From positions 1 to 39,221 of IMG/VR virus record IMGVR_UViG_3300010397_000035: DNA of 39,221 nt; one strand, written 5' to 3'. A model generated the notes under the pieces. That model worked only from the letters and a program-made list of their open reading frames with translations. It ran no database searches and was not told where the DNA came from. Below are positions 2,559-39,221 of the stretch, one piece after another. The stretch's first letter is position 1; each line of letters opens with the position of its first letter. This DNA is from a virus. Position numbers and translations under genes: made by a program.

Positions 2559-2671
2559 CGCCCGAGACGCTGGACCAGATGGTGCGCTAGATCGCCGCGG
2601 CGCAGAAGCCGGCGGAGCGCATCCCCTACGGCCCCTGGCAGGGGAGTTGCCGCAGCCTGACCGCCGACCAG
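2555..2671 (+). other. Upstream in-frame segment of the 1332-aa tail gene, interrupted by amber codon TAG 2588-2590
   Basis: ATG 2555 forms an ATGA overlap with the previous gene, the usual coupling in this genome. It opens a frame of 11 codons (MTPETLDQMVR), meets TAG at codon 12, and then continues in the same frame through 27 protein-like codons (for example RIPYGPWQGSC) into the 1332-residue gene. The downstream GTG at 2672 has no close Shine-Dalgarno; the nearest purine run is about 26 bases away. The natural N-terminus is therefore probably at 2555, with TAG read through, mutated, or a sequencing error for CAG. Confidence 0.75.
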
Positions 2672-6670: not shown

Positions 6671-6688
6671 TAAGAAAGGGGGCCACGG

Positions 6689-7273: not shown

Positions 7274-7274
7274 C

Positions 7275-8477
7275 ATGGCGGACCCGCAGGTGCCGACCGA
7301 TCCGCAGACGATGCTCGCGCACCTGCTGAGTCTGCCGGCCGACCAGTTCGACGCCGCGCTCGGTATCGACGCCGCACCGGTGTTGGACACGGCGCCGATC
7401 CAGGCCCCGGCCCAGAGCGGCGGGCAGCGGTTCCTGCAGGGCTTCTCCGGGCTTGAGAACCAGCCGATGGCGCCGCCGCAGGATTTCGCCTCTGGGCTGC
7501 TCGGCGGGATCACTCGTGGCCTGGGAGCCGCGGGCACCCGTGCGGCGGCCCAGCGGGCGAAATTGGAAGCGGACGCGCTACGCAGGACGGCATTGCGGGA
7601 CGCCCAGAACATCGCGGCGACACGTCAGCATCAGACCGAAGTGTCGGGGGCCAAGCGCGGCCTAGTGATGGCCGGCGTCCATGCCGAACTGGCGAAGCAG
7701 AAGGAAAAGACGCCGGAAGAAATCACAGCCGAGGCCAAGGCGCGGGCACTCGGCGAGGCGCAGGGCAAGGCCGCGGGGCCCGAAGCGCCGGGGACGGCCG
7801 AGCCCAAGCTGTCAGATGACGCGCTGAACGCGATGGTGTCCACGTATTTCGGCACTGGCGTCGCGCCAAGCTTCGGCATGGGCAAGCAAGGCGTAGCGAA
7901 CAAGACACGGTTCTACAACCGCATCGGCGAGGTGGCAAAGGGCGGCGACATCGACCCTGCCCAGCGCATCGCGGCGTCCAAGGCGGAGCGCGACAACCTC
8001 ACCAAGCTGACGACGACCAACGGCGCATTGACGGCATTCGGCAACACGGTCGAGAAGAATCTCAACCTGCTCGAGCCCGCCCTCAAGGGGTTGCCCGATG
8101 TCGGTGTGGGCGTGCTCAATGCCCCGCTGCGTGGTGTCGCGAGCCAGTTCGGCAGCAAGACCATGAGCCGGTTCAACGCCGCTCGCCAAACGGTGGTCAA
8201 CGAGTTCGCCAAGATCATCAACAACCCCTCGCTGTCATCCAACGGCGTGCTGTCCGATTCCGCCCGCCACGAAATGGAAACGATCATCGACCCCAACGCG
8301 CCAGTCGGTGCGATTCGCGAGGCGATCAAGACGCTGCGCGGCGAGTTCAAGAACAGGAAGGCGTCGTACGCGCAGGAGATCGCCGACTCGCAGGCGCGCA
8401 TCAAGTCGCTCGGCGCGCTGCCCGGCACGGCCCAGGCCCGTCAGCGCCCGCCGCTGTCGGCATTCGAGGGGCAATAG
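7275..8477 (+). CDS. Helical internal virion protein, candidate ejection protein (400 aa)
   Basis: I chose ATG 7275, one base after the previous TAG, because the frame further upstream lies inside the neighbouring gene. After a Pro/Gln-rich N-terminus (residues 1-90) the protein is strongly helical with Ala/Lys/Glu coiled-coil-like stretches (KEKTPEEITAEAKARALGEA). A C-terminal helical domain follows around residues 230-385. No catalytic motif is visible. It is the second of three consecutive genes that I read as DNA-ejection or internal core proteins. Confidence 0.65.
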   Translation: MADPQVPTDPQTMLAHLLSLPADQFDAALGIDAAPVLDTAPIQAPAQSGGQRFLQGFSGLENQPMAPPQDFASGLLGGITRGLGAAGTRAAAQRAKLEADALRRTALRDAQNIAATRQHQTEVSGAKRGLVMAGVHAELAKQKEKTPEEITAEAKARALGEAQGKAAGPEAPGTAEPKLSDDALNAMVSTYFGTGVAPSFGMGKQGVANKTRFYNRIGEVAKGGDIDPAQRIAASKAERDNLTKLTTTNGALTAFGNTVEKNLNLLEPALKGLPDVGVGVLNAPLRGVASQFGSKTMSRFNAARQTVVNEFAKIINNPSLSSNGVLSDSARHEMETIIDPNAPVGAIREAIKTLRGEFKNRKASYAQEIADSQARIKSLGALPGTAQARQRPPLSAFEGQ

Positions 8478-8478
8478 C

Positions 8479-9447
8479 ATGCCATTCGACGTCGCAGGCG
8501 CGAAGGCCGCGGGCTACTCGGACGCCGAGATCAATGCCTATCTGGCCAACAAGGAAGCTGCTGCGCCCGATACGACGCAGACGGGCGGCGTCAACCCGCT
8601 CGTGCCGCTCGGCATCGGGGTTACAGGACTCGCGGCGGCAGGCTATGGCGCATCGCAATTGCCCAAGCTCGCGCGCGGGGCCGGTGGTGCGGCGCAACGC
8701 GCCGTGACCAAGTTCGCCGCGCGTCGCGTGCCCGGCGTGGGCGAAGCGATGGACGTGGCAGACCTCGTGAAGGAGTTGCGCGGACCCGGCGCACCGCCCG
8801 AAGCGACCGCACCGCCGCCCGTCGCCGAGCCCACCGTGATTGCGGAGAAACTTCCTGCCACGCGAGCGCGCGTGACGGACGAACTCAAAGCCCGCTTCCC
8901 CAAGGAACTCAAGAACTACAAGGCGGGCGAATCCATCAGCCACTCGCTGCTCGACAAGATCAAGACGGCCGACACGCTGCCCGGCTCAACCGCCTCACGC
9001 ACCGGCCTCAAGGGCCAAGAGAAAACCGACATGCGCCCCGGCTACACCGCCTCCGGCAACAAACAGCGAGGCAAGAGCGGGCCGAGGCTCGTGCGTGATG
9101 CGGCGGCACGGGCCAAGGCCGTCGAATCTCCGCCCCCCGGCTCGGCTCGAGCACGGACGCAGGCCCCGGTCGAAGCACCGACCGATCTCGAGCAGGCGTT
9201 GCGCGCCTCGATTGCCGGCGAACAGGCGATGAAGGCGCGCGTCGGCGGAGTGGTGGACCCGATGGCCCGCGTGCAGGCGATTCGCAACCTGGGGCTCGTC
9301 GGTGGCCCGGCGCTCGAGGCGCTGCAACTAATCCTGGGCGGCGCCAACATGCAGAACGATATGCAGCAGGCTCACGATGTCTACCAGAACTCAGCGCATC
9401 CCAGCGCGGCACTTCGGCGAGCCCTGGAGGGCTCTCAAGGCTTTTAG
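8479..9447 (+). CDS. Internal virion protein with a hydrophobic segment, candidate ejection protein (322 aa)
   Basis: ATG 8479 lies one base after the previous TAG. The N-terminus carries a short motif (AGYSDAEINAYLANK) of a kind often seen in phage internal virion proteins. A Gly/Ala-rich hydrophobic stretch at about residues 40-55 could insert in a membrane, followed by an Arg-rich and Pro-rich middle and a helical C-terminus. A membrane-active part in the third ejection-type gene would suit a protein that forms a channel through the host envelope, but no experiment-like evidence is available in sequence alone. Stop TAG 9445-9447 is followed by GGAGGG, the ribosome site of the next gene. 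Confidence 0.65.
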   Translation: MPFDVAGAKAAGYSDAEINAYLANKEAAAPDTTQTGGVNPLVPLGIGVTGLAAAGYGASQLPKLARGAGGAAQRAVTKFAARRVPGVGEAMDVADLVKELRGPGAPPEATAPPPVAEPTVIAEKLPATRARVTDELKARFPKELKNYKAGESISHSLLDKIKTADTLPGSTASRTGLKGQEKTDMRPGYTASGNKQRGKSGPRLVRDAAARAKAVESPPPGSARARTQAPVEAPTDLEQALRASIAGEQAMKARVGGVVDPMARVQAIRNLGLVGGPALEALQLILGGANMQNDMQQAHDVYQNSAHPSAALRRALEGSQGF

Positions 9448-9459
9448 GAGGGATCACGG

Positions 9460-10155
9460 ATGATCCGCAAACTGCTGTCGCTGTCGCTGATCTTGGGAGT
9501 CGCCGCCACGCTCGCTGCGGCGGGCAATCAGGAGATGCGTACCTACGAGCTCTACTCCGGTGCCAACGCCGCCGACTCCACCGCGCGCACCAGCTACCGC
9601 ATCCCGGTCAAGGGGGCCTCCAAGGTGTATCTGTGGATTCGCTCGGCGGGTGCAACCACGGATACGTCGTTCTGCGACTCGCTGACCACGTTCGCGGCGC
9701 TGTTCGGCGATAGCGTGTCGTTCATCGCCCGCGACTCGAGCGGCACCATCGTCACCCTGCGCAACTTCCCCGGCAATACGTCGGGCTACGGTAACAAGGC
9801 GTTCCCGATCTGCGCCGACTCCACGACGATCACACTCGTGGCCGGTACGACGGCGGTGGAAGATACGGTCAAGGGCATCGTCATTGCGACGCCCGACGTG
9901 GGTACTAAGCCGCTGCGACGCGGCATCTACGTCAACGTCACGCCGGCCGTGCGCTCTCAGCTCAACGCGGCGGGGCTCATCATCCCCAAGGGCGTGCCCG
10001 ATCCCTCCGGCGTGATCCAGGGCAACTATATGTGGCTGCGGCTGACGCCGACGACGCGGCTCACCACGGCGGGATTCAGTAGCACGGCGGGACTTCGCAC
10101 CGCGGGGGTCAACGGCCTGCGGGTCACGGCGACCGTTTACTACCCCAACAAGTAA
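9460..10155 (+). CDS. Secreted beta-rich protein with Sec signal peptide, in the tail gene block (231 aa)
   Basis: A clear GGAGGG site precedes ATG 9460. The first 21 residues form a classical signal peptide: basic MIRK, a hydrophobic core (LLSLSLILGVAATLA) and an AAA-G cleavage region. The mature part is beta-rich with many Thr, Ser and Asp residues, resembling virion decoration or appendage proteins, with two Cys that could form a disulfide in the periplasm. A signal peptide is odd for a protein encoded among tail genes, because virions assemble in the cytoplasm. It could be exported to the periplasm or surface, or the leader could act as a membrane anchor. A second gene of similar design lies at 34265. 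Confidence 0.8.
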   Translation: MIRKLLSLSLILGVAATLAAAGNQEMRTYELYSGANAADSTARTSYRIPVKGASKVYLWIRSAGATTDTSFCDSLTTFAALFGDSVSFIARDSSGTIVTLRNFPGNTSGYGNKAFPICADSTTITLVAGTTAVEDTVKGIVIATPDVGTKPLRRGIYVNVTPAVRSQLNAAGLIIPKGVPDPSGVIQGNYMWLRLTPTTRLTTAGFSSTAGLRTAGVNGLRVTATVYYPNK

Positions 10156-16937: not shown

Positions 16938-17267
16938 ATGGCCCGCAAGCGGATCACGATTCGCGATCTGGTAGCGGCGTGCGCGGAGCGCTCGGGGCTC
17001 GAGCGGCGGCCGTTCATCTTCATCCTGTGGACCGATGCGGCATCGGATCACGGCTGGGACAGCGACTCGGGCAGCTGCTCGATCGGCCCGGTGTGGTCGG
17101 CGGGTTTCACGCTGGTGTGCAACGCCGAGCAAGTGGTGCTGGCGGGGGATGTGTCGCCCGAAGGCGGCCATAACCGCCGTATCGCGGTTCCCATAGCGTG
17201 CATCAACGAAATCCGCCACGGTGCGATGGACGGTCCCTTGGTTTGGCAAGCCAAACGGTCCAAGTGA
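16938..17267 (+). CDS. Hypothetical protein (109 aa)
   Basis: ATG 16938 follows the previous TGA by one base. A basic N-terminal helix (RKRITIRDLVAACAERSG) is followed by beta strands (PFIFILWTDAASDHGW, then GFTLVCNAEQVVLAGDV). I do not recognise the family. The TGA overlaps the GTG start of the phosphoesterase gene, so the two are probably translated together. Confidence 0.65.
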   Translation: MARKRITIRDLVAACAERSGLERRPFIFILWTDAASDHGWDSDSGSCSIGPVWSAGFTLVCNAEQVVLAGDVSPEGGHNRRIAVPIACINEIRHGAMDGPLVWQAKRSK

Positions 17268-18103
17268 GCAAAGCTACCAAGTCGAAGGTTCCCAACGTCA
17301 TCGTCGTGTCCGACAACCACGCCGGCTGTGGGTTGGCCCTCTGCCCCAAGCGGGTCGTGCTCCGGGACAAAGGCGTCTACCACGCCTCGGCGTTCCAGCA
17401 GAAGATCTGGGCGCACTGGACGGAGTTCCGTACCAAGTGGGTACCGCGGGTCACCAAGGGGGAGCCGTTTATCCTGGTCCACAACGGCGACGCCATCGAC
17501 GGCCGCCACCACGGCACGACGAGCCAGATTTCGCACAACCTGCAGGATCAAGAGAACATCGCCCACGACGTCCTAGCGCCGCTCGTAGAGAAGGCGGCGG
17601 CCTACTACCACATCCGGGGCACGGAGGCCCACGTCGGGCCCTCGGGCGAGGCGGAAGAAAGCCTAGCGCAACGCCTGGGCGCCATTCCCGACTCGGGCGG
17701 CAACCACGCCCGCTGGGACTTGTGGCTCGACCTGCAAGGCCACCTGTGCCATTTCAGCCACCATATCGGCGTGACGGGCTCGAGCCAGTACGAGGCCACG
17801 GCGTTGGGCAAGGAGATGAGCGAGAACTACTCCGAGGCCGGACGGTGGGGGGAGCACCCGGCCCAGGTCGTGATCCGCAGCCACCGTCACCGCTACGGCA
17901 TGTGGCAGCACTACGGCAAGCACGGCCTGCAGATGGTCGTGACCACTCCGGCGTGGCAGCTCAAGACCGGCTACGTGTTCCGGGGCCAGGCCAAGATGAG
18001 CCAGCCCCAGATCGGCGGGGTGTTGATCCGCTGCGGTGACGAGGAATTGCACACGCGGGCCATGGTGTGGGCGATGGCGCGCTCGCAGACGGAGCGGGCG
18101 TGA
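17264..18103 (+). CDS. Calcineurin-like metallophosphoesterase (279 aa)
   Basis: GTG 17264 overlaps the previous stop as GTGA. The two-metal phosphoesterase signature is present in order: VVSDNHAG (about residues 15-22, in place of DxH), NGDAIDGRHHG (about 73-83, the GDxxDG block), a GTEAHVG block (about 119), HHIG (about 166) and RSHRHRYG (about 205-212, the GHxHx-type block). The family hydrolyses phosphomono- or diesters; phage members are often annotated as phosphoesterases or putative DNA repair or nucleotide enzymes. The substrate cannot be read from sequence. It is followed by a coupled small HTH gene. Confidence 0.85.
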   Translation: MSKATKSKVPNVIVVSDNHAGCGLALCPKRVVLRDKGVYHASAFQQKIWAHWTEFRTKWVPRVTKGEPFILVHNGDAIDGRHHGTTSQISHNLQDQENIAHDVLAPLVEKAAAYYHIRGTEAHVGPSGEAEESLAQRLGAIPDSGGNHARWDLWLDLQGHLCHFSHHIGVTGSSQYEATALGKEMSENYSEAGRWGEHPAQVVIRSHRHRYGMWQHYGKHGLQMVVTTPAWQLKTGYVFRGQAKMSQPQIGGVLIRCGDEELHTRAMVWAMARSQTERA

Positions 18104-18339
18104 TCAAGGAAAACGAATGGCTGGAAGAAATCGACCGCCTGTCCCGCCGGCATACGGACGGCTGGACCACCGACGAGATGGCCGCCGCCACCGGGTTGTC
18201 GCGCGAGACGGTGCGGGCGCGGCTCAAGCAAGGCATGCTGCTCGGCATCATCGCCCATGCCGGATTCCGCTCGGGCCTCTCCATCGACGGCAAGGGGACG
18301 CGCACGCCGGTCTATCGGCGGATCAAGACTAAGAAATAA
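18100..18339 (+). CDS. Small helix-turn-helix protein (79 aa)
   Basis: GTG 18100 overlaps the phosphoesterase stop. Residues 22-45 read as a helix-turn-helix (WTTDEMAAATGLSRETVRAR), followed by a short basic wing and a C-terminal RRIKTKK. It could act as a DNA-binding regulator of late genes or be a phosphoesterase partner. The TAA at 18337-18339 lies inside the 3' end of the convergent minus-strand gene, an 11-base tail-to-tail overlap. Confidence 0.75.
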   Translation: MIKENEWLEEIDRLSRRHTDGWTTDEMAAATGLSRETVRARLKQGMLLGIIAHAGFRSGLSIDGKGTRTPVYRRIKTKK

Positions 18340-18826
18340 GCGCCTTCCACTGCTCGGTCAGCGCGACTTTCAGCCCCATCAGGTCCGGTCGGCGCGCGGT
18401 TTTCAATCGCACGGCAAGCTTTCCAAACCTGACGTCGCCGATGCGTTCCAGCCACCAGTCGCGGAACTCGGCCGGCTTGTGGTGGGCGAACGTGTAGTGA
18501 CACCCCGCGCATAGCCCCGTTGCGTTGTCGGGGTCCCAGCGTAACGCGTGGATGCGCCTACTGTTGAAGTGGGCCCAATGCAGCGGACAGAACTTTTGGC
18601 AGCGCTGGCACGGCCCGTACCACGTCCGCGTCCCATCCAGCCGCGCGGCTCCTAGTTTCACCATGCAGATGTCACGAGCTAGCTCGTCCAGCTGCTTGAC
18701 CAGGGCATGGTGCTTGCTCACCGCTTTCATCTGCACGCGGGTCTTGAGCCGTTTGGTGCGGGATAGCTTGGTGCGGCGGGCGATGGCTCCTTCCTGGCGC
18801 TTGGTCAGGCTGCGGCCGTTTCTCAC
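18329..18826 (-). CDS. NinG/HNH-type nuclease-like protein (165 aa)
   Basis: I chose GTG 18826 because it overlaps the stop of the upstream gene as GTGA; further upstream the frame lies within that gene. The N-terminal 35 residues are very basic. A metal-binding HNH-like core spans about residues 73-125: CQRC, then LHWAHFNSRRIHALRWDPDN, then CAGCH. The H-F...LRWDP-N...C-x2-C arrangement resembles lambda NinG (Rap), a Holliday-junction recombination nuclease, and related HNH proteins. It is the last gene of the minus operon. It may act in recombination or DNA processing during replication. Confidence 0.75.
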   Translation of the reverse strand: MRNGRSLTKRQEGAIARRTKLSRTKRLKTRVQMKAVSKHHALVKQLDELARDICMVKLGAARLDGTRTWYGPCQRCQKFCPLHWAHFNSRRIHALRWDPDNATGLCAGCHYTFAHHKPAEFRDWWLERIGDVRFGKLAVRLKTARRPDLMGLKVALTEQWKALIS

Positions 18827-19020
18827 CGCTGATGCTTCCTGAGCCAGCACGACCCGCAGTAGTAGACGTCGTTGTCGATCACCGAGGACATATTGGTGCA
18901 ACTGAACCACTGGCAGCGGAGCGGCCCCCGCCGCCGCAAATCGACGCCTTCGCACGTTGAGTCGGCGACGGGGGACTCCTCCCGATCCATCAGGCTACGG
19001 CCATCCGTGTCCCACGTCAT
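18823..19020 (-). CDS. Small zinc-ribbon-like protein (65 aa)
   Basis: ATG 19020 and the TGA at 18823 overlap its upstream and downstream neighbours, so it sits in a coupled chain. The C-terminal half contains CQWFSC and CGSCW, a C-x4-C...C-x2-C pattern that could bind one zinc ion. The N-terminal half is charged and probably flexible. No specific family recognised; it is one of several tiny Cys-rich proteins of this operon. Confidence 0.65.
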   Translation of the reverse strand: MTWDTDGRSLMDREESPVADSTCEGVDLRRRGPLRCQWFSCTNMSSVIDNDVYYCGSCWLRKHQR

Positions 19021-23521: not shown

Positions 23522-24055
23522 TTACGTCACAACGATGCGGCGATTACCTTCGACCAGCGTGGCGCCGGGCACACTCTCGCCCCGCTTCAACGCCTCGGCA
23601 ATCGCTTTCTTGTCCGGTTCGTATTCCAGCCGCGTGCGCAGGTAGGGGGTCGGCGTCTCTCCAAACTCCGGCCCGATCTCCACGCGCGAGGGGTTCTGCC
23701 GCCAGCCGATCTTGTATTGCACTCCATCCAACACTTTCTTGTCCATGCCATCCAAGATGCTGAGAATGTACTTGTCCAGCCGCTCCAGCACCCGTTCGGC
23801 CCGCTGTGCCTTCATCGTGGCGTCGGCGGCGCGTTCGTAGAGCTCGGCGATGAAACTGGATTGGCTCTTCCGGGCCGCGGCGAGCGCATCGCGCTTCTCA
23901 AGCGCCGCCTGCATGCAGTCGTAGACCAAGCCGGCCAGTTCGTCGGGGGTGTCGTCGTCCTCCAAGTCCTCGAGCCGCATCATGGCATCGAGCAGGGCGA
24001 ACTCGGTTTCCCATGCCGTCTGGCGGCGGACGGGGCTAGAAACGGGCGAAGCCAT
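23522..24055 (-). CDS. Gp157-family phage protein (Siphovirus Gp157-like, 177 aa)
   Basis: AAGGAG precedes ATG 24055. The layout matches the Gp157 family (PF05565). There is an N-terminal helix with the acidic segment MMRLEDLEDDDTPDELAGLV, a long helical middle with a coiled coil (ERVLERLDKYILSILDGM), a short beta core (YKIGWRQNPSRVEIG), and a C-terminal DKKAIAEALKRGESVPGATLVE-like end in which Lys and Glu are conserved. Family members lie in replication and recombination regions of phages; their exact biochemical role is not established. The gene overlaps the upstream one by 20 bases. Confidence 0.85.
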   Translation of the reverse strand: MASPVSSPVRRQTAWETEFALLDAMMRLEDLEDDDTPDELAGLVYDCMQAALEKRDALAAARKSQSSFIAELYERAADATMKAQRAERVLERLDKYILSILDGMDKKVLDGVQYKIGWRQNPSRVEIGPEFGETPTPYLRTRLEYEPDKKAIAEALKRGESVPGATLVEGNRRIVVT

Positions 24056-25478: not shown

Positions 25479-26279
25479 CTAGTTATCTCCGTTCGGCTCG
25501 ATCATGGGCGGCTGGCCGTTGGGGTCCGCGGGGCTCGGGCCCTCGTCATGGTGGGCGCCGTTCGCCAGCATCTCGACGTCGCCGCCCGTCAACTCGATCT
25601 TGAGCGGATTGCTCTTGCCCTGGCCCTTGATGCTGTGCGCCTGCCGCGCCACGTCGGCATAGCTGACGATGCCCGATACGGCGGACGGCGGTGCGTCCGC
25701 GGCCGCGCGGTTCTCCCACGAGATACCCTCGCCGCCCTGATGCGAGAACGGATTGACGAATAGGTCGGACCCCGCAGCGGCATCGTGGTTGGCCGAGTAG
25801 TCGGAGCCATCGCCATCGCCCCCCGAGAGCTGGGCCGCGTTGTCCGAGTACATGCCATCGTTCAGCGTCATGAAGTTCTCGGCGGCGAGTTGCATCGTGT
25901 GCATATTGGCCTTGGTTGCGGCTTCCTTGGCGCGATCTTGCAGGGCGAGGTAATTCGGCACCGCAATCGCCGCCAGAATCCCGATCACGACGACGACGAT
26001 CATCAGCTCCACCAAGGTGAAGCCGCGATCCAGGTGCGGGCGCAGCCACGGCGCCGTCCGATACGGCTTGGGGCCGATGCCGTGCGAGTAGTCGGGCAGC
26101 GGTGCCGCGGTGTTCAAGTCGGGCAGCTTCGCCTGCACGATGTGATTGAGAATCCGCATCGCGCCGTTGGGGTGCGGCGTGCCGTCGCCGCCGTCGATGG
26201 TGTCCTGCTGGTGGTCCAGGTAGTCGAGGATTTCTTCCCACAACTCGCGCGGGACGAGCACGTCGGATTCGATGGTCAC
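25479..26279 (-). CDS. Type IV prepilin / pseudopilin domain fused to a phage-type N-terminal domain (266 aa)
   Basis: GTG 26279 follows AAGGAG with eight bases spacing. Residues 1-60 look like a small phage domain (VPRELWEEILDYLDHQ). Residues 83-105 form a complete class III signal and pilin helix: RG-FTLVELMIVVVVIGIL, with the prepilin peptidase site between Gly86 and Phe87 and the conserved Glu91 at mature position 5. The amphipathic helix continues (NYLALQDRAKEAATKANMHT) into a globular part with LFVNPFSHQGGEG, as in bacterial major pilins. No start codon lies near the cleavage site, so the fusion appears real, with an 86-residue leader. It could join or jam the host pilus or secretion pseudopilus, or mask a pilus receptor. 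Confidence 0.85.
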   Translation of the reverse strand: MTIESDVLVPRELWEEILDYLDHQQDTIDGGDGTPHPNGAMRILNHIVQAKLPDLNTAAPLPDYSHGIGPKPYRTAPWLRPHLDRGFTLVELMIVVVVIGILAAIAVPNYLALQDRAKEAATKANMHTMQLAAENFMTLNDGMYSDNAAQLSGGDGDGSDYSANHDAAAGSDLFVNPFSHQGGEGISWENRAAADAPPSAVSGIVSYADVARQAHSIKGQGKSNPLKIELTGGDVEMLANGAHHDEGPSPADPNGQPPMIEPNGDN

Positions 26280-26281
26280 GG

Positions 26282-26359
26282 CTAGTTCTCCTTCCGAGAG
26301 AGAGCATCGCGTAGCACGAACAGACCGAACAGCACCGAGACGAGCGGGAACGCTACCAC
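26282..26359 (-). CDS. Possible membrane peptide (25 aa)
   Basis: GTG 26359 overlaps the stop of the upstream gene by a few bases and encodes a peptide that is almost all membrane span (VVAFPLVSVLFGLFVLRDAL) ending SRKEN at a TAG. It is directly upstream of the pilin-domain gene. There is no strong ribosome site, so coupling would be needed. Confidence 0.4.
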   Translation of the reverse strand: MVAFPLVSVLFGLFVLRDALSRKEN

Positions 26360-26550
26360 TTGGCCACCGCCGATCCGACGACCACGCGGCCACACTTGCT
26401 GCAGGTTCCATCCTTGCGGGTGTAGCGGTTGCCCGAGCAGCCGCAGGGGAAGCACTCGCCGATGTTGCGCGTCAGCCGCTCCACCGCGATCAGGTACAGC
26501 GCCACGATCAGCGTCGCCACGATCAGGAACGTGTTGCCGGGTCCGTTCAT
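26353..26550 (-). CDS. Membrane-anchored zinc-ribbon protein (65 aa)
   Basis: GGAGG six bases upstream fixes ATG 26550. One membrane span (NTFLIVATLIVALYLIAVE, residues 6-24) is followed by a zinc ribbon, CFPCGCSGNRY...CSKCG, and a short tail. It is the first gene after the leftward promoter, about 170 bases downstream of the predicted start of transcription, so it is expected to be expressed earliest. Function unknown. Confidence 0.7.
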   Translation of the reverse strand: MNGPGNTFLIVATLIVALYLIAVERLTRNIGECFPCGCSGNRYTRKDGTCSKCGRVVVGSAVAKW

Positions 26551-30498: not shown

Positions 30499-30702
30499 AT
30501 GATTGACTCGCTGTTCGTTCGCGTGGACACGACGCAGGCCTATCCCGTCGCGCAGTGGGTATTACCGAACGCGACGCATCATGCGACCAGCGGATGGAAC
30601 ACGTTGCTCATGTCATGCTTTGCGATATGCGTGGTCATGGTCACGCTCGTGGGAGTCGTTGCATCTTTCAAGCTGTTAATGAAAATGTTGACCGAATGGT
30701 AA
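30499..30702 (+). CDS. Small single-span membrane protein (67 aa)
   Basis: GAGAGG lies just upstream of ATG 30499. A polar N-terminal part is followed by a membrane span (LMSCFAICVVMVTLVGVVASF) and a short basic end (KLLMKMLTEW). The TAA at 30700-30702 overlaps the ATG of the terminase gene, so the two are co-translated. Function unknown. Confidence 0.7.
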   Translation: MIDSLFVRVDTTQAYPVAQWVLPNATHHATSGWNTLLMSCFAICVVMVTLVGVVASFKLLMKMLTEW

Positions 30703-32366
30703 TGGCCCTCGCTGACACCGCCGTCACCGTCCAAGCCATCCTGGACTTGAAGCAGCGCGACCCGCTGCGTTGGTTCAAGTTCGCCGTGCCCCGGCTGCGC
30801 GAGGCGTTCGCGCTGTTCACGTCGCACGATCCGGTCGACGAGCTGCACGCCCGCGGCCCCAACGGCACCGGCAAGACGCTGACCAAGGCGATGTTCGTCG
30901 TGGCGTGCGCGCAGAAACGCACCGACTTGGACGGCGTACCGATCCCGCAATGGCGTGGCCGGGTCGAGTGCTTGCAACTTGTCTTGGACTTCCCGCAGCA
31001 GTTGCTCTCCGTCAAAGCGGCCTACGAACGCGCACTCGGACAATGGCCGCATCACGCCCGCTACAACGGCGAGCACCTGACCGGCGTGCATGTGATGCCG
31101 GTCGGGGGTGACCCGGACGACGAGTCGCAATGGTCGGTGATCTATTTCATGTCGCAAAAGAACATGCAGGCGGGCACCGGAGCGCGAGCGGATGTTATCG
31201 ACTTCGACGAGCCGCCGCACATGGACTTCCTGCGCGAGCTCCGCAAGGCGGCGCATGCCGGACGCCGCAGCATCATCATCATCGGCGAGACACCAACGCG
31301 GAGACGCGAGTGGGCGCCGCTGCGCGAGGACTACGGCGACACGCCCCGCAGAACGCTCCGGCGCGTGGACAAGGAACGCGCCGAGGTGCGCTGGTCGCTC
31401 GATGAGGTCGATAGCTGGCTGCTCAGTGACGAGGCCAAGGAGAAACTGCGGAGGAAGTACAGCACCGACCCGCTTAGGGCTGCGAGAGAGCACGGCGACT
31501 ACGCCAACACCGAAGGCAAGTGCCCGTTCGATGACGTGACGATCATGCGGATGATCGAGGCGTGGTGCGTCGAGCCGGACATCAAGCACATTCGCGTCGC
31601 GATCGAGTCGCCCGATGGGGAAGCCAAGACGATCGAGCGCGTGCCGGTCGAAGTGTGGCAGATGCCCAAGCGCGGGCAAGAGTGCTACATGGCGATCGAT
31701 CCGGCCTCCGGCATCGATGACGACGCGCACAACCCCGCGGCGTTGCACTTGTGCGATGCGGATACCGGCGAGTTGCTGGTGCGCTGGAACGGCTACCTCG
31801 CCCCCTACAGCGTGGGCGCGATGGCGGCGGCGCTGCACCGCCACTACAACCTCGCCGCGTGTGATATCGAGATGAAGGACCATTGGGGTGTCAACGTCGT
31901 GCGGGGCTACACCGACAACGACGGCGGCAATCTGTGCTATGAACAGCGCGAACTACGTCCGGGGGTATGGGCCAAGGAGGTGGGATTCGATGTCAGCCAA
32001 GAAACGCGCGCCATCTGGATCGGCGGCATCCAGGAATGGATCGCAGCGTTCCGTGCCAATGTTCCTTATGGAATGTGCCGATCACGCGCGGTGTTTGAGT
32101 GTCTACTCGACACTGAGTTGGACGACCGCGGGCGGATCGTTGCAGCGCCCGGAGTGGCGCATGGTGAGGATATGGTGCTTAGGGGGCAAACTCTCCGTCG
32201 AACCATCCGCCCGACCAAGGAAGCGCCCGTCCGCTACGAACCGCCGCCCGCGCCGCACGAGCTGACCCAGAAAGCCAACGACGAACTCGCCCGACTGATT
32301 GCCGGCACGGAGGCCGATGCACTCGAGCCCGACTACCTCACGCCCCACGATCCGCCGCGCTGGTAG
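30702..32366 (+). CDS. terL: Terminase large subunit (ATPase and nuclease, 554 aa)
   Basis: This motor cuts and pumps phage DNA into the procapsid. I chose ATG 30702, which overlaps the previous stop. The ATPase has Walker A GPNGTGKT near residue 52 and Walker B VIDFDEP near residue 165, followed by an IIIIGETPT coupling motif. The nuclease domain has the expected acidic residues: AIDPASG near 330, DIEMKDHWG near 388, and HGEDMV near 487. Length is normal for the family. The C-terminus overlaps the GT-C gene by 50 bases. Usually the portal gene follows directly; here three other genes intervene. Confidence 0.95.
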   Translation: MALADTAVTVQAILDLKQRDPLRWFKFAVPRLREAFALFTSHDPVDELHARGPNGTGKTLTKAMFVVACAQKRTDLDGVPIPQWRGRVECLQLVLDFPQQLLSVKAAYERALGQWPHHARYNGEHLTGVHVMPVGGDPDDESQWSVIYFMSQKNMQAGTGARADVIDFDEPPHMDFLRELRKAAHAGRRSIIIIGETPTRRREWAPLREDYGDTPRRTLRRVDKERAEVRWSLDEVDSWLLSDEAKEKLRRKYSTDPLRAAREHGDYANTEGKCPFDDVTIMRMIEAWCVEPDIKHIRVAIESPDGEAKTIERVPVEVWQMPKRGQECYMAIDPASGIDDDAHNPAALHLCDADTGELLVRWNGYLAPYSVGAMAAALHRHYNLAACDIEMKDHWGVNVVRGYTDNDGGNLCYEQRELRPGVWAKEVGFDVSQETRAIWIGGIQEWIAAFRANVPYGMCRSRAVFECLLDTELDDRGRIVAAPGVAHGEDMVLRGQTLRRTIRPTKEAPVRYEPPPAPHELTQKANDELARLIAGTEADALEPDYLTPHDPPRW

Positions 32367-33660
32367 GCTCTACGCCGGCCTCGCGGCCATCTTCGCCGCC
32401 CGGCTGCTGGCGTTCTGGCTGTTCCCCCTGTGCGCCGAAGATGCCTATATCAGCTACCACGCCGGCATCGACCCCGCCTGGCGTGCCGCGACCACGTCGC
32501 CGCTGTGGAGCCTGCTGTGCGCCGCAGCCGATCCGCCGACCGTGGCGCGGCTCCTGAGCCTCGTGGCCGACTGCGTGGCCGTGTGGGCCGCGTGGCGCGT
32601 TCTGGGCGTATGGGGCTACTGGACGTTCCTGGCGCTGTGGGTGTCGCCATTCTTTACAGGCTCGGCCGTGTCAGGGCTCGAGACGCATGCGGTAGCCGCG
32701 TGTCTGCTGGTGGCTCGAGTCTGGCCGGTCGGCTACTTCCTGGCCGCCTGCCTGCGTCCCGATGCGGCGGCAATTGCGCTGGTGGCGAGCGGCAAGCGGT
32801 GGCGCTACGCCTTGGCGGGATTCCTCATGCTGCTCGGGGTCGGGCTGCTGTTCTGTGGCCATGCGCTGCCGCAAACGATGGCCAGCAAAGCACTTGTATA
32901 CGGAATCCATCCCGGCGACTGGACTTGGCTCGCCCCCCGCGAGTTTGACTTTCTTTCCATTGCGGTCGGGATCGGTTGCGCGGTAGCGTTGCTGAAGCAG
33001 CGCGAAGGCCACCGGCCCCCCTGGCTCTACGTCACGGGGGCCGTCGCCTTTCTGCTGGCGCATGTGGCGTTCGGCTCGCCACACTTTTGGTGGTGGGCCG
33101 TCCCGCCGTTCGCGATGCTCAGTTTCGTGGCGTGTGAGTCCATCCGCCGCCCCTGGCATCTCGTCATCGCGCTCGCCTGCTTGGCTCTGTTCGCTGGCCG
33201 CCAGTGGCACGCCTTGACCGAGCGCACCGAACGCGAGGCGCAGTTGTGGCACGCGGGTGAGGAATTGGCCAAGTTCCATCCTCGAGGCACGGTGCTGCTC
33301 GAGCCCGCCGGCATGATCCCCTATCAGAATCGCAACCTGCGCGTCATCGATGACGTGGGGCTGCTCGAGCCGTGGATGGCGTGGCGGCGCAAGCTGGGAC
33401 GCGGCTGGCGCACCGATGCGCTCAACCTATACAAGCCGCGCTGGCTCATCATGCGAATGCGCGAGTATGTCTATCCCGATGGCTGGATCGTCGGGCAGCC
33501 GAGTTTCTACGATTCCACCGATGCCAAGCTGCCAGATTACGGTTTGGTATCGCTGCCGGGCGTTACATATATCGGACAGTCGGGACAGTTCAAGACCAAG
33601 ATGGTATCGAGCAATTTAGTGATCTTGATGCGAAAGCCCTTGACACCGCATCCGAAATAG
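32317..33660 (+). CDS. Polytopic GT-C-type glycosyltransferase-like membrane protein (447 aa)
   Basis: I chose ATG 32317 with GGAGG three bases away, inside the end of terL; TTG 32299 is the alternative. The protein has about eight to ten membrane spans over residues 16-300. The first outside loop holds ED (residues 41-42) in AEDAYISYHAG, then TTSPLWSLL (59-67), SGLETH (119-124) and RPDA (147-150). This D-A-Y-I / TSPLW / SGLE / RPD set is that of bacterial GT-C enzymes of the arabinofuranosyltransferase or mannosyltransferase kind, which use polyprenyl-phosphate sugars outside the membrane. The last 130 residues form a soluble domain (FHPRGTVLLEPAGMIPYQNR). It could modify a surface glycan that serves as phage receptor. 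Confidence 0.8.
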   Translation: MHSSPTTSRPTIRRAGRLYAGLAAIFAARLLAFWLFPLCAEDAYISYHAGIDPAWRAATTSPLWSLLCAAADPPTVARLLSLVADCVAVWAAWRVLGVWGYWTFLALWVSPFFTGSAVSGLETHAVAACLLVARVWPVGYFLAACLRPDAAAIALVASGKRWRYALAGFLMLLGVGLLFCGHALPQTMASKALVYGIHPGDWTWLAPREFDFLSIAVGIGCAVALLKQREGHRPPWLYVTGAVAFLLAHVAFGSPHFWWWAVPPFAMLSFVACESIRRPWHLVIALACLALFAGRQWHALTERTEREAQLWHAGEELAKFHPRGTVLLEPAGMIPYQNRNLRVIDDVGLLEPWMAWRRKLGRGWRTDALNLYKPRWLIMRMREYVYPDGWIVGQPSFYDSTDAKLPDYGLVSLPGVTYIGQSGQFKTKMVSSNLVILMRKPLTPHPK

Positions 33661-33672
33661 GTACGGACCTAT
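33657..33672 (+). promoter_or_regulatory. Hairpin covering the start codon of the HNH gene
   Basis: ATAGGT (33657-33662) and ACCTAT (33667-33672) pair perfectly around the loop ACGG. The stem includes the stop of the glycosyltransferase gene and the first bases of ATG 33671. Translation of the HNH gene could be held down until a ribosome from upstream opens the stem. Start-region hairpins are known to restrain T4 homing endonucleases. A six-base stem could also arise by chance. Confidence 0.4.
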
Positions 33673-34168
33673 GCCAGAGATACGAGTAATTCCGCCAGGG
33701 GTAACGGGCCAAGACTTGATGGGTCGTCGCGGCTGGCGTCCGCCCAAGCTTGACCTTGAGGGATGGCTTGCGCGAAGGGGCGCCTGGTACACCGTGGAGC
33801 CGAATGGGTGCTGGCAGTGGCGGCGGGCGCTTTCGGGCGGTCAGCGCAATCGGGCCGGATATGGCGTGCTATTCGTCAACGGCCGCAGGGTCGCCGCCCA
33901 TCGCTATGCTTTTGAGTTGATGAGGCGCCCCATTCCCAAAGGGCTCTGCATCAATCACATCTGCGAGAACCGAGCCTGCGTCAATCCCGACCACATGGAA
34001 CTCGTGACGCCCGGCGTAAACGTGCTCATGGGGCGCGGCCCGTCGGCGAAGCGGCTGGGCGCCAAGACTTGTCCCAATGGGCATCCATACCGTCCCGAAA
34101 CAACCTACATCACACCGAGCACGGGATGGCGTCGATGTCTGATATGCAGGGCGCTGCGCGAAAAGTAG
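33671..34168 (+). CDS. HNH homing-endonuclease-type protein (165 aa)
   Basis: ATG 33671 follows the previous stop by ten bases. The HNH core spans residues 46-115: NGCWQW, GYGVLFVNGRRVAAHRYAF, GLCINHICENRACVNPDHME. The His-Asn-His set is complete (His77/His96 region, Asn100/Asn105, His108). A second zinc ribbon near the end has CPNGHPY...CLIC. Free-standing HNH genes of this class are mobile in phages and cut genomes that lack them. It sits between the glycosyltransferase and a secreted-protein gene in an otherwise conserved terL-portal interval, so it may have brought these neighbours in. Confidence 0.9.
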   Translation: MPEIRVIPPGVTGQDLMGRRGWRPPKLDLEGWLARRGAWYTVEPNGCWQWRRALSGGQRNRAGYGVLFVNGRRVAAHRYAFELMRRPIPKGLCINHICENRACVNPDHMELVTPGVNVLMGRGPSAKRLGAKTCPNGHPYRPETTYITPSTGWRRCLICRALREK

Positions 34169-34264: not shown

Positions 34265-34906
34265 ATGACCCGCAAGACCCGCGGCTTGGCCGCACTTTGC
34301 ATGCTCGCCACGCTGGCCATCCCGATCATTGCATCGGCGGGCTGGCACACCGACGAACTCGGCTGGCACATCAGCCGCATCGGCGGCGCCACCGGCACCG
34401 CCATCGTCCAGGTCGATACCGCCTTCACCGTGGTCAACGGCGTGTCGGTATTCGACACCACGGCGGTGTTCTCGCTCGACCGCGCCGACGTCCCGCCGCG
34501 CGGCAATCCCGTCGTCAGTCTCGGTGCCCTGGCCGGCAGCAACACCGCCACCAACGACACCACGGTCGTGGCGTACCTGACGCTGCAGCCGGACTCGGGC
34601 ACCGTTGCCCCTGCGGTCGGTAGCGGCACGATCACGGTCATGGTCGAAGGCAAGATCGGCGGCTATGGGCCGGTGGCGGTCAACTCGTCGGGTTGGTCGC
34701 GTATCGACTCGACGGTGACGACGCTCGGCAGCACCTCGCTGGACCAGAGCGTGACGATTCCGATCCGCACCATCGGCAAGTACAGCACGCCGCTCGGCTT
34801 CAGTTCGCTGCGCGTTCGCACCATCGGCGGCACGGCAACGCTCGGCGCATGCCGATCGTTCCTGCGCTGGTGGGAGAACGACTCCAGCAACCCGAAGCGG
34901 CCGTAG
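34265..34906 (+). CDS. Secreted beta-rich protein with Sec signal peptide (213 aa)
   Basis: GGAGG ten bases upstream supports ATG 34265. A signal peptide ends at residue 25 (ALCMLATLAIPIIASA-GW). The mature part is a beta-rich, Thr/Val/Gly-rich domain (IVQVDTAFTVVNGVSVFDTT and on) ending in a basic tail. It resembles in design the secreted protein at 9460 and, like it, lies within the morphogenesis genes. Expected location is the periplasm or cell surface. Function unknown; a decoy or exclusion role is possible. A 68-base gap with a GC hairpin follows before the portal gene. Confidence 0.75.
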   Translation: MTRKTRGLAALCMLATLAIPIIASAGWHTDELGWHISRIGGATGTAIVQVDTAFTVVNGVSVFDTTAVFSLDRADVPPRGNPVVSLGALAGSNTATNDTTVVAYLTLQPDSGTVAPAVGSGTITVMVEGKIGGYGPVAVNSSGWSRIDSTVTTLGSTSLDQSVTIPIRTIGKYSTPLGFSSLRVRTIGGTATLGACRSFLRWWENDSSNPKRP

Positions 34907-34974: not shown

Positions 34975-36951
34975 ATGCCTAGCCGCTACGCCGATCTGCC
35001 GCCGCACAAGGCGGTTGACAAGCGGTTCGAGGACAACTATCCGCTGTGGCGTCCCAAGTACGACGCCATGCACGAACTCAGCCGCTTCCTTTCCGGCGAT
35101 CGCTACGTCAACGACGGCGGCGCGTTCAACAAGGACCGCCGCGGCGTGCAGATTCGTGGCCAGGACATCCAGGACACGATCCGCCACGTCGTTGCCAAAG
35201 CCACCGAGAAGCCGCGCAGCATCGAAGCCCGCCCGATCGATACCGACACCGATCCCGACGCCGCCGAGCTGATGCAGGGGTTGGTCACCAACGAACTGAG
35301 CGACCCCTACAAGGGCTTCGAGCGCGAGCGTTACGCGGCGATTCAGAGCTGCCGCGAGATGCGGCTGGGTGTGGTGTGGATGGACTACGTACCCGACTTC
35401 GGCGCCTATGGCGGCGAGATCATGTACTCGTGGCAATCGCCCGACCGCATCATGTGGGAGGCGCCGTATCACCCGCATCATCCCTTGTGCGGCTGGTTGA
35501 TCCGCGACAAGCGCATCAACGTCGATGAGGCGCGCGATACGTATTCGGCTCCCTGGCTCGAGCCCGACCGCGGCGCGTTGACCGCTCAAGGCAACTGGAA
35601 AGCCGGCACGCCGCTGATTCAGGGCTACAACGACTGGCTGGCCGCAACCTGCATCAACGATGACAAGGTCACGGTACGGGAGTGCTGGTACAAGAACGAC
35701 AAGACGCTGGCCAAGAATAAGAAACCGGTCAACTACGAACCGCTGAAGCCGGAAGATCGCTACCTCTCCTGCCAGGACGGCTGCGGCTTCCGTAGCGATA
35801 CCCAAGCGACGCTGGCGAGCATGGGCGCCCCCAAGGCGCTGCCCGAGCAAGTCGATACCGGCTGCCCCGTATGCGGCGGACACCTGACCCGCGTGGATGC
35901 CACGCAGACGAGTGCAAGCGTGCTGGCGTACTCGAAGGGCCGCCGCCTCGTCATCAGCGCACCCTACTCGCCTAACCCCAACGACGAGCCGCTCTACGAC
36001 GGCCAATGGCCGATTGCCAAGGCTAGGTCGTTCCCCGGCCTGTTCCTGTTCGCCAGTGTGAAGCCGGGCGATGTGATGGGGCCGTGCGATGTGGACTGGA
36101 TGTGGGACCAGCAAGTCGCCCAGGACAACTTGGACACGCTGGCGGTGCAACGCGTGTTCGAGCACCGCAACTATTGGATCATGCCGGAAGTTGGAATCAA
36201 CGACTATCGGCGGAAGCGGTTCGAGTTCCGCGAGGACCAGCAGAACCTGATGTTCCGCGACATGACCAAGGCCAAGTACGGGCCGCTTGAGGTGCAGAAC
36301 ATCAACGGCACCGGGCTTGATCCGGCTTGGGGCGGCGTGAGGTCGGTTGTAAGCCAGAATCTCACGCGCTACGTGCCCAAGTCGGACATCGGGCTCGTCC
36401 CCGGCGAAGCCCACGACATCCCGGTCGGCACCACGCAGCTGGTGCAAGAGCAGGCCGAGACGTCCACCAAGGACTTCATCACCCGCTGCAACCAGGAACT
36501 GTCGATGTTCTACGGCGTCGTGGCGGACTACATCAGCGCGACGTACACGCCCGAGCGCATGGCGCGGCTCAATATCGACGGCACCGACTTCCTGCTGCAA
36601 TTGAAGGGCGACGATCTGCCCAACTTCGATTTCGTCGTCACCGAAACCCCCGACTTCACCGGCATCGACAAGGAGAAGTCCCAGGCATTCGACCAAGCGA
36701 TGGGTGTGGCAATGCAGATGGGCCCCGAGGCGTTGGATGCGTGGGGGCAGTTCCACAACGTGCCCAAGTCGGTGATTCGCACGATTCAGAAGCTGTTCCA
36801 GGAGAAGCAAGCCCAGGCAGAGCAGATGGCGGCGCAGGGAATGGCGCCCGGTGCGGCGGGAGGCCCAGGGATGGCAGCTATGGAGAGCCCCGCCGCGCCC
36901 CCAACGAATGGCCCAAGTGGTGGCGGCATGATGCCGTCACCTGTTGGCTAG
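34975..36951 (+). CDS. Portal protein with internal zinc-ribbon insertion (658 aa)
   Basis: The portal ring is the DNA gate and the start point of capsid assembly. The length, the place between terL and scaffold, and a helical Gln/Met/Ala-rich C-terminus (QEKQAQAEQMAAQGMAPG) fit podovirus portals. The N-terminal half has a wing-like alpha/beta domain with DRYVNDGGAFN and WMDYVPDFGAYGGE. An insertion around residues 263-302 carries two Cys pairs, SCQDGCGF and GCPVCGGH, a zinc ribbon not typical of portals. The long helix of the crown or stem follows (DIPVGTTQLVQEQAETSTKD). Confidence 0.85.
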   Translation: MPSRYADLPPHKAVDKRFEDNYPLWRPKYDAMHELSRFLSGDRYVNDGGAFNKDRRGVQIRGQDIQDTIRHVVAKATEKPRSIEARPIDTDTDPDAAELMQGLVTNELSDPYKGFERERYAAIQSCREMRLGVVWMDYVPDFGAYGGEIMYSWQSPDRIMWEAPYHPHHPLCGWLIRDKRINVDEARDTYSAPWLEPDRGALTAQGNWKAGTPLIQGYNDWLAATCINDDKVTVRECWYKNDKTLAKNKKPVNYEPLKPEDRYLSCQDGCGFRSDTQATLASMGAPKALPEQVDTGCPVCGGHLTRVDATQTSASVLAYSKGRRLVISAPYSPNPNDEPLYDGQWPIAKARSFPGLFLFASVKPGDVMGPCDVDWMWDQQVAQDNLDTLAVQRVFEHRNYWIMPEVGINDYRRKRFEFREDQQNLMFRDMTKAKYGPLEVQNINGTGLDPAWGGVRSVVSQNLTRYVPKSDIGLVPGEAHDIPVGTTQLVQEQAETSTKDFITRCNQELSMFYGVVADYISATYTPERMARLNIDGTDFLLQLKGDDLPNFDFVVTETPDFTGIDKEKSQAFDQAMGVAMQMGPEALDAWGQFHNVPKSVIRTIQKLFQEKQAQAEQMAAQGMAPGAAGGPGMAAMESPAAPPTNGPSGGGMMPSPVG

Positions 36952-36960
36952 AGGTACACG

Positions 36961-37734
36961 ATGACTGACCCGACTCAGACGACGGGGACGCCCGAGCAGG
37001 ACGGCGGGGACGCGGCGGAAGTGCCGACGGCCGGAACGCCTGTTGCGGATGACCGGAACGCTGACCACGGCATCAATCGCGAAGAAGCCCTGGTGTGGAA
37101 GTCCAAGGCCGAACGGCTGAACGCTGCCGAGGCCGAGGCCAAAGCCTACAAGGCGCAACTGGATGCTTTGACACGTTCGCAGTCGCCAGCCGCGAACGGG
37201 AGCGATCCACGAGCCGAACGCTTGGCCACGGTCAAACGGTTTGCCGAAGGCACGATTGGCGAAGGACCAGACCCGGTGGCTGCCGAAGTGCTGGAGTTGC
37301 GCGAGGCGTTGGCGATGACGGTCGCAGAGCTCACCAACGTACGAGAGCTCGACCGCGTGGCCGACGAGGACAAGCGCTCCCGCATCGCCAAGCACTTCAA
37401 TGACAACCGACACCGGCTCGGTGACGTGAAGGCGGCACGCGCAGAGATCGAGGCCGAAGAGCGGGCGGCAAAGGTCGCCGAGCAGGAGGCTGAGATCGAA
37501 CGGCTGAAAAAGGCGCTCGAGGCGCAAGCCAAGCGTCCCGGCTCCGACGTGGTGCAGACGCACACGCGCGAAGTCTCCGCCGCCGAGCACAAAGACATCA
37601 TGACGCAAGCGCAGTGGAACGAACGACAGGCCATGCTCGAGCGGCAAGCCGATAGCGGCGACTTGGAAGCAATCAAGATCCGCCGGCGAGAGCAAGTGGC
37701 CCGCGCCAATGGAAAGTTGCGCGTCGAGGGTTGA
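36961..37734 (+). CDS. Capsid scaffolding protein (257 aa)
   Basis: ATG 36961 follows the portal stop by nine bases. The acidic, Pro/Thr/Gly-rich N-terminus (residues 1-40) is followed by long coiled-coil helices rich in Ala, Glu, Lys and Arg (KSKAERLNAAEAEAKAYKAQ; AARAEIEAEERAAKVAEQEA) and a basic C-terminus (IKIRRREQVARANGKLRVEG), the part that binds coat protein in P22. Position directly before the major capsid gene supports the call. No protease domain is seen. Confidence 0.85.
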   Translation: MTDPTQTTGTPEQDGGDAAEVPTAGTPVADDRNADHGINREEALVWKSKAERLNAAEAEAKAYKAQLDALTRSQSPAANGSDPRAERLATVKRFAEGTIGEGPDPVAAEVLELREALAMTVAELTNVRELDRVADEDKRSRIAKHFNDNRHRLGDVKAARAEIEAEERAAKVAEQEAEIERLKKALEAQAKRPGSDVVQTHTREVSAAEHKDIMTQAQWNERQAMLERQADSGDLEAIKIRRREQVARANGKLRVEG

Positions 37735-37772
37735 AGCTGCGCTAGCGCGAATCGTCAGGGAGGACGAAACGC

Positions 37773-38624
37773 ATGGCATCACCTCCGATCCTTACCCCGA
37801 GCGGTACGACGGGGTTCAACCGGCAGACCTGGGCCGACACGATCGAGGGCACGACCTACCAGAAGATGGTGGCGATCCCTTCGTTCGATGAGTACCCCGG
37901 CCGGATTCTCAATCAGGGCAACGTGCGGAAGCAGGGCCGCACGGCCGGCCAGACGCTCGGCCAGTCGGCGGAAGGCACCTCGCTGACCTCGGGCGACATC
38001 ACCGGCACCCCGATCACCATCACCCCGGTCGGCCGCTACGTCGCGGTCTACTGGTCCGAGAACGAGGACGCCCAGGTCGAAGCCAACCTGGATCGCGTCG
38101 CCGCCGACAACATCGAGCAGTCGCTCGCCGAAGTGTCGGACACCGCTGCACTCGCTACCGCCACCTCGCTGACGCAGACGATGAGCCAGGCGAGCGTGGA
38201 TGCGGCGATGTTCCGCCAGGCCGTCGGCCGCTTGGTCGGCAACATGAACGGTGCCGTGATGCCGGGCGACGACAGCATCATGGCGATCTTCTCGCACACG
38301 CAGTACCCGAACCTGATGAACATCCCCGAGTTCACGGATGCCGACGTCCGTGGCGACTCGGAGAACCCGCACGTCAAGGGCATCTATACCCGCGGCGGCG
38401 GCGTCAAGGTCATGCTGTCCACGGTCGTGGCGCAGGATGCCAACGGCTGGCACAACATCCTGTACGTGCGCAAGGCGTTCGTGGTGGGATGGAATGCTCG
38501 CTCGCGCATCAAGCGGCAGGACATCGAGCTGCAGAACCGCATCATCGTCTACAACAACTTCGGAGTCTCGGTGCAGCACGATTTGCGTGCCATCGATCTG
38601 CGGACGACGGCGAGCGGTCTGTAA
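37773..38624 (+). CDS. Major capsid protein (HK97-fold-like, 283 aa)
   Basis: GGGAGGA lies about ten bases upstream of ATG 37773. The length and pattern fit an HK97-fold coat protein of the N4-gp56/P22-like kind: an N-terminal arm (NRQTWADTIEGTTYQKMVAI), a central spine-helix segment with DAAMFRQAVGRLVGNMNG, a DDSIMAIFSHTQYPNLM strand-helix block, and a C-terminal axial domain (NILYVRKAFVVGWNARSRI). It is the expected partner of the scaffold upstream. The TAA is followed by a GC hairpin. Confidence 0.85.
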   Translation: MASPPILTPSGTTGFNRQTWADTIEGTTYQKMVAIPSFDEYPGRILNQGNVRKQGRTAGQTLGQSAEGTSLTSGDITGTPITITPVGRYVAVYWSENEDAQVEANLDRVAADNIEQSLAEVSDTAALATATSLTQTMSQASVDAAMFRQAVGRLVGNMNGAVMPGDDSIMAIFSHTQYPNLMNIPEFTDADVRGDSENPHVKGIYTRGGGVKVMLSTVVAQDANGWHNILYVRKAFVVGWNARSRIKRQDIELQNRIIVYNNFGVSVQHDLRAIDLRTTASGL

Positions 38625-38636
38625 TCAACCCGAGCG

Positions 38637-38662
38637 GGGCGGGTGCTCGTATAGGCCCGCCC
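38637..38662 (+). terminator. GC hairpin after the major capsid gene
   Basis: GGGCGGG (38637-38643) and CCCGCCC (38656-38662) form a perfect seven-base stem with a 12-base loop. There is no T run after it, so it may be a partial terminator or an mRNA-stabilising end that favours high coat-protein expression. Confidence 0.5.
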
Positions 38663-38681
38663 AACTCACCAACGAGGATTC

Positions 38682-39221
38682 ATGGGAATCACGCACCAAG
38701 TAGGCGACCCCGACCTCAAGCGTCCCGCGATCCGTGCCGAGCGCGGCGCCTGCGCCGACTGCCCCGTATACGAAAAGTGCCTGTTTCACATGCCGCGCTA
38801 CGGCGGGTTCAAGAACCAAGGGCCCCGCAATGTGGTGTACGCGCTCATCACCGACAAGGTGGAGAACCACAACGCCAAGGAAGAATGCGTCTCGTGCAAG
38901 AACTTCGTCGAGACGATGCAGGACCGCATGCTGTCGGGTCGTGCTGCCGCTGATGAAGGCCGGCAGGGTGCCGAGCGGGTGCGCGTGCTGCTCAACCGCA
39001 CGACCTACCGCATGGGCACCGAGATGCCGTTCAACGGCAGGGGAGAAATCATCAAGCAGCCGCTCTATCTGGTGGAGGACTTGCGCAAAGCCGGCTACAA
39101 AGTCAACCAGGACGACATGGGTGTCCCCGCCAAGTGGCAGACGGTGGTATTCGATCGCACCGTGCCGGACTACAGCGCTCCCCAGGTGACGACGAGCAGC
39201 TACAGCGAGGAGATCGCCCAG
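38682..39221 (+). CDS. Zinc-binding-like phage protein after the major capsid gene, N-terminal part (split at the contig end)
   Basis: ATG 38682 is 57 bases after the coat-protein stop, with a weak GAGGA-type site. The frame stays open to the last base and continues at the left end of the window (stop 250-252), giving about 222 residues. Cys24, Cys27 and Cys33 in CADCPVYEKC, with Cys69 and Cys72 in CVSCK, suggest a zinc site. A long helix and a beta stretch (IIKQPLYLVEDLRKAGYKVN) follow. Role unknown; a minor head protein is the simplest guess. Confidence 0.8.
   Translation, partial: MGITHQVGDPDLKRPAIRAERGACADCPVYEKCLFHMPRYGGFKNQGPRNVVYALITDKVENHNAKEECVSCKNFVETMQDRMLSGRAAADEGRQGAERVRVLLNRTTYRMGTEMPFNGRGEIIKQPLYLVEDLRKAGYKVNQDDMGVPAKWQTVVFDRTVPDYSAPQVTTSSYSEEIAQ
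39099..39221. repeat. Terminal direct repeat, right copy
   Basis: Exact copy of positions 1-123. See the left copy for interpretation. Confidence 0.95.

Follow-up and report, generated by a model that had tools for sequence, protein, structure and literature searches.

Why should a phage carry the gene for a membrane glycosyltransferase between its terminase and portal genes, and what might the enzyme do for it? The question is raised by one open reading frame in the window, by which we mean the whole stretch of DNA analysed here, an IMG/VR virus record of 39,221 bp with 64.9% GC.

The gene and its surroundings

The reading frame and the genes around it are arranged as follows.

30603-32366, plus strand: terminase large subunit gene, true start uncertain (motifs GPNGTGKT, DVIDFDEPP and AIDPASGIDDD)
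32306-32319, plus strand: SD-like GGAGG, followed after 3 nt by the ATG, both lying within the last part of the terminase gene
32317-33660, plus strand: GT-C glycosyltransferase gene, intact, 447 codons plus stop, start ATG at 32317
33671-34168, plus strand: HNH endonuclease gene, 10 nt after the GT-C gene (HNH_3, 4e-10; phrog_826, 1e-36)
34265-34906, plus strand: small secreted-type ORF with a signal-peptide-like start and no family match
34975-36951, plus strand: P22-like portal gene (Pfam P22_portal, E=2e-11)

The terminase and GT-C genes overlap by 50 nt (32317-32366), and an in-frame TTG at 32299 offers an alternative start that would add six codons. Visible Walker A/B and nuclease motifs, together with gene order, are the basis of the terminase call, the Pfam match to Terminase_6N reaching just E=0.056. 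The sequence-only reading had placed the GT-C gene between terminase and portal, and there it lies, in an interval that also holds the HNH endonuclease gene and the secreted-type ORF and so comprises three genes, not one. The GC content and codon usage of the GT-C gene fit the phage's own genes. Among the genes compared, it is the HNH gene, a short one, that has the most distant codon usage. This endonuclease may have aided the insertion between terminase and portal.

At the right end of the record (36961-39221) the order is portal, scaffold-like and capsid-like genes, and the left end (1-9447) carries tail/ejection-like genes, an arrangement that fits the P22 type, provided that the record represents a nearly complete genome in circular permutation. 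Small ORFs similar to the secreted-type one, with signal-peptide-like starts and in structural regions, lie at 9460-10155 of the window (plus strand; no family match) and, judged by eye, at 16641-17351 of L066, the second phage described below. Two recombination genes were also annotated.

18329-18955, minus strand: NinG/Rap-like recombination gene (6e-10)
23522-24055, minus strand: Gam/Gp157-like recombination gene (E 4e-17 Pfam, 2e-19 PHROG)

An AftB-like glycosyltransferase

Single-sequence searches with the GT-C protein gave no match in Pfam, NCBIfam, PHROGs or the PDB, tblastn against phages and plasmids yielded nothing useful, and no relatives appeared when viral and genome contigs were scanned with the single GT-C, terminase and portal sequences. 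Relatives came from 84,980 species genomes, in which a DNA pattern (D.[YF]I and T[ST]PLW, 17-27 residues apart) picked out 36 bacterial loci, 34 of them with the protein motif; in viral contigs, two DNA motif scans found no locus. A profile from 26 pattern-locus proteins scored the GT-C protein at 85.9 bits, and the two loci that matched it individually (75 and 49 bits) both belong to Candidatus Eisenbacteria. With a second profile, made of the Eisenbacterial orthologues and the L066 protein and leaving the window protein out, the score was 103.7 bits. The reversed sequence scored -17.4, and the best of 1,000 global and of 1,000 local shuffles reached 6.4 and 5.4, respectively; since none of these 2,000 shuffles exceeded 6.4, the family resemblance is not due to chance.

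The protein had been described as arabinofuranosyltransferase-like, which the profile searches bear out: a broad family profile (A1) matched AftB (9dlf) at E=6.8e-81 and a profile of the Eisenbacterial and window proteins (A2) at E=1.6e-8, AftB being the only significant solved chain for both, whereas the single sequence alone matched none. AftB, a mycobacterial beta-(1,2)-arabinofuranosyltransferase of family GT89 (PDB 9dlf/9dlh), belongs to the same GT-C_A class and shares with the phage protein a C-terminal soluble domain with a G..D..GL.P signature, although it is 669 aa long, as opposed to 447, and its first loop is longer by 11 residues. The sequence blocks named earlier (EDAYIS, TSPLW, SGLETH and RPDA) are all present, and the acidic pair is conserved among relatives, its aspartate in 27/27. 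The following elements could be located.

32437-32508, plus strand: first extracytoplasmic loop, from the acidic pair E41 D42 to TSPLW (D42-T60 spacing 18, not 29)
32674-32682, plus strand: G-L-E of the SGLE motif (E122, equivalent to AftB E172)
32755-32763, plus strand: RPD motif (R147, equivalent to AftB R221, donor phosphate)
32869-32889, plus strand: PQTMASK motif (T187, equivalent to AftB T274; K191 invariant)
33073-33110, plus strand: GSPHFWWWAVPP, at the site of AftB GGDFMHGR (R372); the aromatic residue is W here and Y in Eisenbacteria
33298-33400, plus strand: signature of the C-terminal soluble domain, EPAGMIPY...VIDDVGLLEPW...RRKLGRG

In AftB the residues D62, T91, E172, R221, T274 and R372 touch or face the donor, and the mutants D62A, R221A and R372A are dead (PMC12041299). 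Counted on the alignments, the first five correspond to D42, T60, E122, R147 and T187 of the phage protein, which thus keeps five of the six. The exception is R372, for which, as for GGDFMHxR, there is no equivalent; full membership of AftB (GT89) was rejected on this ground, and since a residue whose replacement inactivates AftB is not kept, we call the protein AftB-like without filing it as AftB.

A MAFFT-guided AlphaFold2 model from 27 sequences reached pLDDT 71 and pTM 0.77, the single-sequence model being poor (pLDDT 42). Foldseek searches of the guided model, which provide the structural check on the proposed GT-C identity, ranked ALG12, ALG9, PimE, AftA and ArnT first in the PDB; because the TM-scores of the confident hits were 0.35-0.49, the model supports the fold class only, not a close match. 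Against viral models there was no match at E<=0.001. Profiles and model together confirm the window protein as a predicted multi-span GT-C (GT-C_A) glycosyltransferase.

Eisenbacterial relatives and a second phage

By tblastn, 11 of 47 Candidatus Eisenbacteria genomes match the GT-C protein (best E=4e-21, 40% identity), and none does among 117 from the phylum to which G004, a Deltaproteobacteria MAG filed under Myxococcota in the lineage table of the tree, belongs. In the tree the window protein falls inside an Eisenbacterial clade (support 100/97; 16 rows including the window and L066) together with the orthologues L015, L011 and L040-L049, on a long terminal branch (1.83). These chromosomal proteins are about 505-525 aa long, with a full first loop and a longer N terminus and loops, and the phage copy is 28-33% identical to them; EDA.I, SG[LM]E, RP, PQ[ST]..[AS]K, EP.G, VD[ED].GL..P and RR are invariant in the orthologues and the phage protein alike. 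Given the long branch and the low identity, the substrate of the phage enzyme may differ from that of its chromosomal relatives. In the loci that we read the Eisenbacterial genes are solitary, with tRNA synthetase, peptidase and binding-protein genes as neighbours, so that this housekeeping neighbourhood, in which no glycan cluster was seen, gives no clue to function.

A second gene of Eisenbacterial type lies in the window.

25479-26411, minus strand: type IV pilin-like gene with an N_methyl motif (RGFTLVELMIVV...), 57% identical over its full length to an Eisenbacterial pilin

At least 40 residues of unrelated phage-like sequence stand in frame ahead of the pilin motif, resembling a fusion to another small protein, and a start codon is absent near the cleavage site. 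As an Eisenbacterial-type pilin and the GT-C protein both point to one phylum, the host of this phage is, judged from its genes, most likely a member of Candidatus Eisenbacteria. Prophages of its lineage were not found there, neither the portal nor a phosphoesterase-like ORF of the window having a match in the 47 genomes.

Scanning 2.9 million viral contigs with a profile yielded one further record with the gene, IMGVR_UViG_3300046517_001799 (L066). Its orthologue has 468 aa and a full-length first loop (29), and is 43-49% identical to the Eisenbacterial genes. By inspection L066 has ORFs for a terminase, a portal and capsid-like, tape-measure-like, tyrosine-recombinase-like and DnaB-like proteins; the GT-C gene follows a RecA/Sak4-like gene among recombination and replication genes, apart from terminase and portal. 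Only the GT-C and phosphoesterase-like genes are common to the two phages, which are otherwise unrelated. The phosphoesterase-like genes, so named by eye, lie at 17198-18103 (plus strand) in the window and at 899-1984 in L066, and are 54% identical, with no PHROGs or Pfam match. Two separate captures of GT-C genes by phages are likely, as the tree does not join the phage copies, although the long branch leaves doubt.

The position beside head genes had suggested a role late in infection. That suggestion finds no support, because the L066 orthologue sits in a different gene block, which speaks against a role bound to the late operon; a late-only function was rejected on the gene order of the second phage. 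The 11-residue loop deletion, the lost R372 equivalent, the neighbouring HNH gene and the Eisenbacterial origin had escaped the sequence-only reading.

Possible functions of the enzyme

What, then, would such an enzyme do? We give a little better than even chances to a solitary, host-derived GT-C that carries out a surface modification like that of serotype conversion, using a lipid-linked sugar of the host. Directly behind this reading stand the homology, the fold class, the active-site residues, the origin in a host family, the occurrence in two unrelated phages and the missing gtrA and gtrB; from these we infer the activity, the donor, the acceptor and the benefit to the phage. The gene would have been acquired from among the chromosomal genes of Candidatus Eisenbacteria. 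Its product would reside in the cytoplasmic membrane, take a sugar from a polyprenyl-phosphate donor that the host synthesises and flips, transfer it with the help of the first-loop aspartate D42 and of R147, and place it on an envelope acceptor at the outer face, which could be O-antigen, another surface glycan or a glycoprotein. The most likely benefit would be an altered receptor, leading to superinfection exclusion or to a modification resembling serotype conversion, and there are precedents in the modification of O-antigen by phage GtrABC (PMC3688519) and in superinfection exclusion (reviewed in PMC11436027). The suggested change of the receptor glycan, by which released virions would escape loss on debris, may be one option.

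The claimed absence of gtrA and gtrB holds: neither GT2/GtrB-type (PF00535) nor GtrA (PF04138) genes were detected in either virus record, which may be incomplete, and the positive controls matched. For want of such genes, the donor lipid and its flipping would come from the host. The GT-C enzymes known from phages are mainly those encoded by the third gene of gtrABC cassettes, in phages of enterobacteria. GtrC of P22 and of Shigella phages is likewise a phage-borne multi-span glycosyltransferase that uses a lipid-linked sugar, as predicted here, but the window gene has neither the gtrA flippase nor the gtrB bactoprenol glycosyltransferase of that cassette beside it, lacks a PHROGs match, lies between terminase and portal and is of AftB-like lineage. 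The three-component GT136 pentofuranose system of Citrobacter O1/O2 also employs an extracytoplasmic GT-C for side-chain glycosylation, accompanied by a donor synthase and a flippase, whereas the phage record has the transferase alone. As for AftB itself, we know of no mycobacterial arabinan in the inferred host.

The first loop raises the possibility of an altered or non-catalytic copy, which would bind donor or acceptor without transfer, interfere with the host orthologue and so lower or change the surface modification of the host. Eleven residues are missing from this donor-site loop, corresponding to YARNLAxGxGLVYNPGERV, and the protein is additionally shorter at its N terminus and in several other loops. 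In each of the 45 relatives measured the loop Thr follows the catalytic Asp at a distance of 29 residues (30 in two of them), and in AftB the distance is likewise 29 (PMC12041299). Rows derived from the genome pattern are biased in this respect, since the pattern itself required 21-31, but the spacing is 29 in all 18 rows obtained by other routes (Eisenbacterial tblastn or HMM hits and the second phage). The deletion may change or abolish donor binding, and the long terminal branch also speaks for an altered copy. Nevertheless D42, T60, E122, R147, T187 and K191 are all retained despite about 70% divergence, and with catalytic, phosphate, sugar and loop residues so preserved a dead enzyme is not expected; in addition, the AF2 model is still GT-C-like and the second phage's orthologue has the full-length loop. 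We therefore regard an altered copy as unlikely.

Somewhat more doubtful still is a role in glycosylating the type IV pilin of phage or host, which would shield the pilus from competing phages. The model here is TfpW of Pseudomonas group IV strains, a GT-C arabinosyltransferase whose substrates are pilins and which gives protection against pilus phages (PMC11841053), and the phage genome likewise has a pilin gene, one close to an Eisenbacterial pilin. TfpW, however, is encoded by the bacteria themselves, in association with their pilin, and its likeness to the phage protein is one of enzyme class; in the window about 6 kb separate the GT-C gene from the pilin gene, which lies on the opposite strand, the record of the second phage has no pilin match, and in the loci read the host GT-C genes are not beside pilin genes.

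The HNH endonuclease gene directly 3' of the GT-C gene, and the broken adjacency of terminase and portal, would also suit passenger cargo, inserted in association with the endonuclease and of no present benefit. We hold this to be improbable: the ORF is intact, its motifs are retained at about 30% identity, its codon usage is phage-like, and the orthologue of the unrelated phage lies elsewhere with no HNH gene seen adjoining it. An equally speculative proposal is that the phage remodels the pilus or envelope of its host into a private receptor state: with a pilin of Eisenbacterial type encoded by the phage itself, and a GT-C whose shortened loop alters the choice of donor or acceptor, infected cells would present a pilus or glycan of no use to competitors. 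An assembly chimera with host DNA, which the host-family origin of the protein might suggest, was rejected as extremely improbable: the start codon lies within the terminase gene, GC content and codon usage are phage-like, identity to chromosomal genes is just 28-33%, and a second phage has the orthologue.

A surface-glycan transferase is a known strategy of phages; its AftB-like version and the missing loop segment are new. That two phages of a little-studied phylum, unrelated to each other, carry a stand-alone AftB-like GT-C from a family that is solitary in the host suggests surface-glycan conversion by one captured enzyme relying on the donor lipid of the host. The AftB-like GT-C also provides a marker for Eisenbacteria phages, and the natural deletion in a donor-site loop of otherwise constant length offers a ready test of the role of this loop in AftB-type enzymes.
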